From contig NZ_CP020663.1 of NCBI RefSeq assembly GCF_002381345.1, forward strand, positions 124,001-188,000: 64,000 nucleotides of DNA. Reading direction: 5' to 3'. The position numbers and the translations under genes were made by a program. Positions 1 through 4,719 of this stretch are shown piece by piece; position 1 is the stretch's first letter; the number at the start of each line of letters is the position of its first letter. The stretch is from Candidatus Enterovibrio altilux (GTDB lineage Bacteria; Pseudomonadota; Gammaproteobacteria; Enterobacterales; Vibrionaceae). The notes under the pieces are model-generated. The model searched no databases. It saw nothing but the letters and a program-made list of their open reading frames with translations, and was not told the DNA's origin.

Positions 1-58
1 GTACTAATAGAAACGATGAGTCTGACGTAAGTTGCATTTAACGGTAGATATAAATACG
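1..58 (+). mobile_element. Fragment of the window's common IS (IS5-type), internal part
   Basis: These bases match, with scattered changes, the mid-transposase stretch found in the other copies (for example 985-1048 and 48061-48122), which encodes the 'KLHLAVD.NTHEI' region of IS5-type transposases. The fragment is cut off by the window edge on the left and stops just before the tRNA on the right. Confidence 0.6.
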
Positions 59-89
59 CCTAACATAAAAACGACTAAATAATTTAACG

Positions 90-166
90 TGGCTACGGGA
101 GCTGGATTTGAACCAATGACCTTCGGGTTATCAGCCCGACGAGCTACCAAACTTCTCCATCCCACG
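90..166 (-). tRNA. Initiator-type tRNA with anticodon GAU (probably a decaying tRNA-fMet copy)
   Basis: The minus strand folds as a 77-nt tRNA that lines up without gaps with bacterial initiator tRNA. It keeps two initiator hallmarks: the unpaired C1 x A72 at the acceptor end, and three G-C pairs (GGG/CCC) at the base of the anticodon stem. CCA is encoded. The anticodon loop reads CTGATAA, giving GAU (bases 130-132) instead of CAU, so C34 has become G. Other damage: an A13 x G22 mismatch in the D stem, A49 x C65 in the T stem, two G-U pairs in the acceptor stem (2-71, 3-70), and G73 instead of A73. Because the body is initiator-like, a normal tRNA-Ile is unlikely. A non-functional relic is most likely; an initiator reading AUU/AUC is the exotic alternative. 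Confidence 0.75.
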
Positions 167-395
167 CTACTATAAAAGTGTATTCTGGAACAGAACTGAA
201 GTACACAAAATTGCAATTAAATGCACAACTACTCTTTAGCAGCTTCCTTTTAACTTTACTTGAAGGAGTATACCTTTCACTATCGTATGAATCAATATTT
301 TATAAATTTACATCATCTAGCCAACACAAATGAGTTAAAAAATTCATTCACTTAAATTCACAGTATAAATAATATAACATAGTATGGTCACAAAA

Positions 396-1549
396 GTGGT
401 ACTAATCTGAGTTATGTGATCCCTTAGGTTCAATGTCCCTACCAGTAGTTTTTTTGACTCTAACCATTGCTGTCTCTGCTAGGGACGTTTATGGTAACCG
501 GTTTTATTTTTTACATAAGGGAACTACATTTTCAATCCACACTCTACACAATTAGGCTAACTTAAATATTCAGGTCTATGAACAATTTTCACTATAAAAC
601 CACTAACTGGAAGCGGTGTAATCAAACTTTAATGAATCGTGGCTCACTAACATTCTAGGTTAATGAAAAAAGTTATTTAGCTATGGAATCAAACTAAGCA
701 GGGTAATCATGGAAAACCTTATATATTTAGCAACTTAACCACTACGACGGCCCTCATGGTTAAATGCGTATTTTCAATGACATTGAGAAGTCTGCAAGCA
801 TGATTAATTCTGTTTGCAAACTGATTCAACTGCCTTTGTCGTGCCTTCACTATTCATACATTAGCAAGTGATCCAAAACGGTTAATGTCACGTTTAAAAC
901 GAAGAATAAAGAGGCATATAGCACTTATCCATTAGTTTTACGGAGCTAAAAGTTTACGATGAAGGAGAATGGAAAGCAAAAAAGTATGGTATTAATGGGA
1001 AATAGTAAGTCTAGCACAAGTTGCAGTTAGCGGTAAATATAAATACGTATGAAATCAGTGTTGCTGAGTTAAGCGCCTCAAATGTGACTGACGATGCAGT
1101 GCTGCCTAGTTTGCTCAAACAGCCCCGCTGAGAAATTAATGCAATATCAACGAATGGTGCTTACGACACCAAACAATGTTACGAACTTGTTCGGATGAAA
1201 TAAGCAGTTCCAATTATACCACCAAAAAAAGGAACAATTTTTTAGGAACGCGGTCATCCGTGTAATTTAGCGGTCAGTTACTAGAAGTTATACGGTTCCA
1301 ATCAATATTGGGAAACGAAGTATGCTTATACTAAACGTTCCCTATCAAAAACGGCAATGTTTCAAATCAAAAAATTACTGGGAGGGATATGGAGCTTAAT
1401 AGCTTATAATGCTCAAATTAGCAAAACTTACACCATGATAAAAGCGTTAAATAAGCTGGCAGAGCTAAGTGCATCTAAAACAAAAGCGATTGTTTAATCT
1501 TTAATCATGTTAAAATTTGTTATTTGAACTAGAATGAGAAAATAAAACC
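396..1549 (+). mobile_element. Degenerate IS5-type element, composite form (inverted 3' arm + full copy)
   Basis: Bases 501-1549 are a near full-length plus-strand copy. Conceptual translation with frame repairs gives an IS5-family DDE transposase: an N-terminal 'QLWNQTK.GNHG' part near 685-715, a central 'KLHLAVD.NTHEI' part, 'ISADGAYDTKQCYE' near 1150-1180, and a C-terminal 'SLSETAMF' and 'MIKALNKL' part near 1340-1460. Stops and frameshifts leave no ORF. Bases 396-500 are the 3' end of a second copy in inverted orientation, joined directly to the 5' end of the first. The same join recurs at five other loci. The right end carries a degraded terminal repeat; the left arm has lost its tip. 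Confidence 0.85.
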
Positions 1550-4154: not shown

Positions 4155-4230
4155 GGGGCTATAGCTCAGAAGGGAGAGCGCTTGTATGGCATACAAGAGG
4201 TGGATGGTTCGATTCCGTCTAGCTCCACCA
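4155..4230 (+). tRNA. tRNA-Ala (anticodon GGC)
   Basis: A 76-nt tRNA beginning GGGGCTATAGCTCAG and ending CTCCACCA. The anticodon stem CTTGT/ACAAG encloses the loop ATGGCAT, giving anticodon GGC. Acceptor, D and T stems pair well, with one G-U in the T stem, and CCA is encoded. It reads the alanine codons GCC/GCU. A 66-bp IS-end palindrome begins immediately after the CCA. Confidence 0.93.
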
Positions 4231-4608: not shown

Positions 4609-4719
4609 GGAGGCCTCGTTAGTTCTCCCGCAACATTATCTTGTGAAATGGGTCAGATCCGGAAGGAAGCAGCTCGTACTTGTGGTATGTGTGCAGGGAT
4701 GTAGCTGGTGAGGCTTCCA
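4609..4719 (+). ncRNA. ffs: 4.5S RNA (signal recognition particle RNA)
   Basis: The RNA core of the bacterial signal recognition particle, which binds Ffh and targets membrane proteins during translation. The universally conserved apical region is present: 'GGTCAGATCCGGAAGGAAGC' and, on the return strand, 'GCAGGGATGTAGCTGG'. The 5' end GGAGGCCTC pairs with the 3' GAGGCTTCC to close a long hairpin, as in E. coli 4.5S RNA (114 nt); here about 111 nt. 'TTCTCCCGCAAC' near the 5' side also matches. Confidence 0.95.

Follow-up and report, generated by a model that had tools for sequence, protein, structure and literature searches.

The 64,000-nucleotide stretch of DNA analyzed here (the window) corresponds to C2:124001-188000 of a genome of 2,143,356 bases. 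Of its 4 contigs, the longest has 1,604,691 bases. The anglerfish Cryptopsaras couesii carries in its light organ the symbiont "Candidatus Enterovibrio luxaltus" CC26, and the genome published for that symbiont (PMC6020299) is matched by this one. In the available text of that paper, CC26 is reported to have 785 pseudogenes, 689 transposase genes (0 complete; 672 in family IS5), and 36 tRNAs, at 14x coverage. Using the Rfam tRNA model, we obtained 37 matches for the same genome. The genus has one other reduced genome, G012; it gave 39 tRNA matches, the number that the text also gives for Ca. E. escacola (PMC6020299). The left end of the window contains the following features.

1..68, no strand assigned: end of a multicopy repeat remnant that starts left of the window; many own-locus matches, among those listed, end near C2:124058-124080

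90..166, minus strand: initiator-type tRNA gene with a GAU anticodon, very probably a decaying fMet paralogue (ARAGORN; Rfam tRNA, 45.2 bits; 69/77 to the genome's own fMet)

130..132, minus strand: anticodon GAU, with C34>G relative to every CAU initiator compared (sequence)

173..247, ends approximate, minus strand: tRNA-Cys remnant of an ancestral Cys-Gly-fMet cluster (42/74 to tRNA-Cys in relative G004; score 34 versus a maximum of 27 in 2000 shuffles)

248..400, ends approximate, minus strand: remnant of the region upstream of the cluster (85/147 positions to G004)

297..324, minus strand: promoter-like hexamers TTGGCT and TAAAAT, 16 nt apart, at the ancestral promoter place (9/12 to consensus)

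404..1047, no strand assigned: second repeat copy in the same orientation as the first (among the matches listed, C2:123548-123716 = 124404-124574 and 123699-124058 = 124641-125047)

ARAGORN called the 77-nt gene at 90-166 on the minus strand as tRNA-Ile with anticodon GAT. With the Rfam tRNA model it scored 45.2 bits, compared to a gathering score of 29, and this was the second lowest score among the genome's 37 matches. The initial annotation had described an initiator-type tRNA with G at position 34, and the resulting GAU (Ile) anticodon was verified by the sequence and by ARAGORN. The initiator marks on which that description was based, C1·A72 and three anticodon-stem G-C pairs (G29-G31/C39-C41), are indeed present, as are A11-U24 and an encoded CCA. 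The gene shares 69/77 positions with the CAU initiator of the same genome but only 48/81 alignment columns with that genome's tRNA-Ile(GAU). Furthermore, the nearest tRNA with the same anticodon is 33 changes away, while the nearest initiator is 6 changes away. The possibility that this is a normal tRNA-Ile, which had been named as a potential refutation, is ruled out by these distances, the body being closest to initiators. By the criterion of sequence similarity, the GAU gene is an initiator by descent.

As a reference for the individual changes, we used 19 distinct 77-nt CAU initiators from loci taken as best matches. tRNAs that are not 77 nt long or do not start with C were left out, including four tandem 91-nt tRNA-Met (CAT) calls in relative G003 (L043:2014-3001), the first part of which resembles an initiator. 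The 19 initiators are invariant at 66/77 positions, and the genome's own intact CAU initiator is unchanged at all 66 of them. The GAU gene differs from the nearest of the 19 by six changes (3 C>T, 13 C>A, 34 C>G, 49 G>A, 71 C>T, and 73 A>G), every one of which falls on an invariant position, and no compensating changes were found for these six. They break the pairs 13-22 (A13·G22) and 49-65 (A49·C65), turn 3-70 and 2-71 into wobbles, and alter the anticodon and the discriminator base. The two mismatches and G73 had been pointed out correctly in the initial annotation; C3>T and C71>T, which cause the two wobbles, were not in its list. In place of the CAU anticodon of functional bacterial initiators the gene has GAU, and in place of A73, G2-C71, and C3-G70 it has G73, G2·U71, and U3·G70. 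Formylation is determined mainly by C1-A72, with A73, G2-C71, C3-G70, and G4-C69 as minor determinants, and the GAU gene has lost three of the four minor ones listed in the available text of PMC9976931.

The expectation that such a molecule would still fold held in part. The acceptor C1·A72, the anticodon stem, and the CCA are kept, but in a prediction for unmodified RNA the cloverleaf (-13.3 kcal/mol) was less stable than an alternative fold (-19.1 kcal/mol). For the genome's own intact initiator, the cloverleaf was the best predicted fold, at -27.0 kcal/mol. Thus, judging by the predicted fold, the GAU gene lacks the stable cloverleaf of a functional initiator. In 500 simulated trials, six random substitutions broke a mean of 2.46 pairs, compared to 2 in the GAU gene; therefore, the changes fit random hits, although six changes give this comparison little power.

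A CAU initiator elsewhere in the genome had been considered essential in the initial annotation, and an intact one was found at C2:55791-55867, amid tRNA-Cys, -Gly, and -Leu genes and identical to copies in relatives. The genome therefore does not lack an intact fMet gene, as had been contemplated, and the GAU gene has the intact counterpart that a redundant pseudogene is expected to have. Since a normal tRNA-Ile(GAU) is also present, the GAU copy is redundant. Two further CAU tRNAs in the genome are presumably elongator Met and Ile2, as judged by their E. coli counterparts.

Other tRNA copies in this genome have decayed much further. Behind tRNA-Leu(GAG), a remnant of the initiator gene that we call metY lies at C2:71422-71640 (L114:11422-11640), with 27/47 aligned positions and 30 gapped. 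Between tRNA-Cys and the intact initiator, a tRNA-Gly remnant (C2:55868-56003) retains 50/74 positions to relative G006. With 71/77 positions in common with the nearest intact gene, the GAU gene is far better kept than the Cys, metY, and Gly remnants. A single genome thus holds initiator genes at what appear to be three stages: intact, recently damaged with a new anticodon, and almost gone. Ahead of the metY remnant, a promoter-like GATATAAT stretch is kept, perhaps for genes downstream.

In relatives, initiators are found in clusters of the Cys-Gly-fMet type and as a single metY behind tRNA-Leu(GAG), and the same-genus genomes G001-G017 have 1 to 11 matches each. When the sequence preceding the GAU gene was aligned to the relatives' cluster, the score was 106 with G004 (200 shuffles gave no more than 51), and G006, G016, and G013 each scored 84 (eight upstream comparisons in total, with the shuffle control for G004 only). 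The Cys part alone scored above 2000/2000 shuffles. The upstream region and the tRNA-Cys remnant are each ~57% identical to the relatives' cluster. Free-living relatives, compared to G004, share 73 or 74 of the 74 Cys positions and 118 or 119 of the 148 positions in the region before it. The tRNA-Gly gene, which comes next after Cys in relatives, is gone at the GAU locus. Judged from these alignments, the GAU gene is the last recognizable gene of an ancestral Cys-Gly-fMet cluster.

Other origins were also considered. An origin from metY is ruled out, because the metY remnant still sits behind tRNA-Leu(GAG). A cluster ending in tRNA-Leu(UAA) is a less likely source, since its upstream scores (40 to 54) were below those of the other cluster type (84 to 106). 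Conversion by the genome's own intact copy is not supported either, because at positions 17 and 63 the two copies differ, and there the GAU copy agrees with other relatives. No match of CGGGCTGATAACCCGNAGG was found in viral contigs, a result that says little about a phage source; beside this null result, the descent from the relatives' cluster provides positive evidence on the origin.

The surroundings of the gene have changed as well. ubiG lies 1.6 kb from the GAU gene, while in three relatives its distance to the Leu-Gly-fMet cluster is 36 to 38 kb, indicating that the neighborhood was rearranged or shortened; in G012, no UbiG match was found. The repeat that flanks the GAU gene on both sides is probably one of the reported IS5 remnants. 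Farther into the window, ARAGORN detected an ordinary tRNA-Ala(GGC) at 4155-4230, near a bacterial small SRP RNA at 4617-4713 on the plus strand (Rfam, 55.7 bits).

As a control, we compared 36 of the genome's 37 tRNAs (C1:197487-197571 was left out) with the relatives' tRNAs in the loci examined, so that all distances are upper bounds. Most of the genome's own tRNAs had 0 to 7 changes to the nearest relative under this bound. Changes amounted to at most 6 in tRNA-His, 7 each in Ala-GGC, Ala-UGC, and Val-GAC, and 11 in Arg-ACG, and three tRNAs with no same-anticodon comparator had up to 19, 22, and 28. A high change count is thus ruled out as proof of death, since presumably living tRNAs of this genome carry as many changes or more, and the six changes alone do not mark the GAU gene as dead. 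The count of mispairs gained relative to the nearest relative gave a different picture. The GAU gene gained 2, while among 34 other own tRNAs 32 gained 0 and only two gained 1, namely, the second tRNA-Glu copy and Arg-CCU, which has no true comparator. (tRNA-Trp was set aside in this count, because its ARAGORN end misfits the stem numbering and creates 4 false mispairs.) Even in tRNAs that carry 5 to 11 changes, Arg-ACG, Ala, and Val-GAC among them, no pair is broken. The GAU gene therefore shows uncompensated damage, as a pseudogene would, and none of the 34 others compared gained two mispairs. By this comparison it is set apart by the kind of change, not by the number, and the control that weakened the case for decay on change counts strengthened it on gained mispairs. 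The tRNA-Glu copy, at L001:1423-1498, is one of two own tRNA-Glu(UUC) genes and has an anticodon-stem mispair absent from its nearest relative; it is perhaps another redundant copy in early decay.

Compared to the adjacent Cys remnant, the GAU gene has changed little: 6/77 positions versus 32/74 (Fisher p = 4.7e-7, treating sites as independent), or ~0.08 versus 0.65 changes per site after Jukes-Cantor correction. Its divergence is thus not like that of its neutral neighbors. Because it is far less decayed than the other dead copies, either selection on it ended late or some function remains. If rates were equal, constraint would have ended in approximately the last eighth of the time, or it may not have wholly ended.

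We consider it very probable that the GAU gene is a redundant initiator paralogue in recent nonadaptive decay, in which base 34 was hit by chance. The initial annotation had offered, as one of two branches, a dead copy that reveals the loss of one of several fMet genes, and this branch is supported by the intact CAU initiator, the ruined cluster, the two newly unpaired positions, and the dead metY. We infer a loss of function and the following order of events. The starting point would have been the state of free-living relatives, whose initiators are a single metY and those of one or two clusters of the Cys-Gly-fMet type. In the reduced symbiont, one cluster would have retained the intact CAU initiator, while metY and some Cys and Gly copies would have died long ago. 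The second cluster would have lost its Cys and Gly genes and become enclosed by repeat remnants. Its fMet gene probably stayed under selection longer than its neighbors and then acquired six changes without compensation, the switch from CAU to GAU among them. The main cause would be that a shrinking genome sheds redundant tRNA copies, the anticodon change being the rare part.

Several observations stand against decay. The GAU gene has decayed much less than the other dead tRNA copies, its change count is within the range of the presumably living own tRNAs, a promoter-like site is located at the ancestral place, and no damage has reached the CCA, the anticodon stem, or C1·A72. The promoter-like site, the encoded CCA, and the late loss of constraint could also mean that the gene still gives a processed transcript with no part in initiation, such as a weak transcript, a tRNA fragment, or a poor Ile elongator that is tolerated or has a minor role. 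Such a product is unlikely, however, given the damaged predicted fold and the existence of a normal tRNA-Ile(GAU). Moreover, the promoter stretch is not significantly better kept than its surroundings (21/29 invariant positions versus 85/143 elsewhere), and promoter-like sites are common by chance (4 found versus 2.2 expected in the scanned stretch). An error in sequencing or assembly, with the copy in reality being CAU, is hardly credible: the reported coverage is only 14x, but the library was PCR-free with 250-bp reads (PMC6020299, available text), five other changes lie within the same 77 nt, and the locus is visibly decayed.

A working Ile initiator would be charged by IleRS via GAU, formylated by virtue of C1·A72, and brought to the P site by the three G-C pairs, and it would start translation at AUU/AUC. 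By analogy, E. coli initiators with changed anticodons are able to start with Ile, according to the available text of PMC9230714, and the divergence far below that of the neighboring remnants, the change count inside the range of other own tRNAs, and the promoter-like site upstream would be in line with such a role. We nevertheless regard it as very unlikely. G73, G2·U71, and U3·G70 remove minor formylation determinants listed in the part of PMC9976931 available, the gene has two new stem mispairs, and its cloverleaf is not the best predicted fold. In addition, the sister symbiont G012 lacks the GAU initiator, and the initiators found in it have CAU. A history in which the gene was recruited after the death of the cluster, so that selection keeps a natural Ile initiator that starts some proteins of this anglerfish symbiont at AUU/AUC, would leave precisely a much lower divergence than that of the adjacent remnants; the chance of this is very small. 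Isoleucine initiation by the GAU gene would thus be possible but unlikely, and recent decay of a redundant initiator copy is the reading we prefer.

The GAU initiator is rare. The pattern CGGGCTDATAACCCG, which demands exact stems and so misses more damaged copies, occurred in 9/329 genomes of the family, and according to ARAGORN the window's gene was the only tRNA among these matches. A conserved GAU initiator shared across the family is rejected on this search, because the other 8 matches are not tRNAs; with this exact-stem pattern, the 329 family genomes yielded no second initiator-type tRNA in which base 34 is changed. A stricter pattern, also requiring exact stems, matched in 1/394 genomes of the order, the window's own (33 of the 394 are family members, own included, and overlap the set of 329). 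A scan of contigs from 84,980 species, again with exact stems and in a collection from which near-own records may be missing, gave 7 matches, 1 of them a tRNA. This was a GAU initiator-type tRNA beside two CAU initiators in a Leclercia MAG contig (DERO01000042.1; L065:164-240, minus strand); it lies 164 bases from the contig end, so that a fault of assembly is possible. The 84,980-species scan therefore gave only one other tRNA in which an initiator body carries a sense change at base 34. No report of this GAU gene was found in the open-licence papers searched, including the available text of the genome paper (PMC6020299).

Disagreement between the anticodon and the isotype model is flagged by tRNAscan-SE 2.0 (PMC8450103, available text), which should catch a gene like the GAU initiator. 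The gene resembles natural tRNA anticodon shifts, in which the anticodon of an orthologous gene changes to that of another amino acid; the survey of such shifts, as described in the available text, covered high-scoring genes of 61 Enterobacteriaceae and several eukaryote groups and had 0 shifts in initiators (PMC3923123). With bacterial tRNA-fMet, the GAU gene shares C1·A72, A11-U24, the three anticodon-stem G-C pairs, the 77-nt length, the CCA, and 71/77 positions to the nearest intact gene compared, but it differs in having GAU instead of CAU, two new mispairs, two acceptor-stem wobbles, and G73. With tRNA-Ile(GAU), in contrast, it shares the anticodon GAU only; it has just 48/81 columns in common with the genome's own tRNA-Ile(GAU) and differs in G73 as well. 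If shown to be alive, the gene would be the counterpart in nature of the isoleucine initiators made in the laboratory. The primary paper on isoleucine start by anticodon-changed E. coli initiators is said to be that of Pallanck and Schulman from 1991. Like the laboratory mutants of the E. coli initiator described in the available text of PMC9230714, the GAU gene combines an initiator body with the anticodon of another amino acid; unlike those mutants, which were engineered and otherwise intact, it is natural and damaged in its acceptor, D, and T stems.
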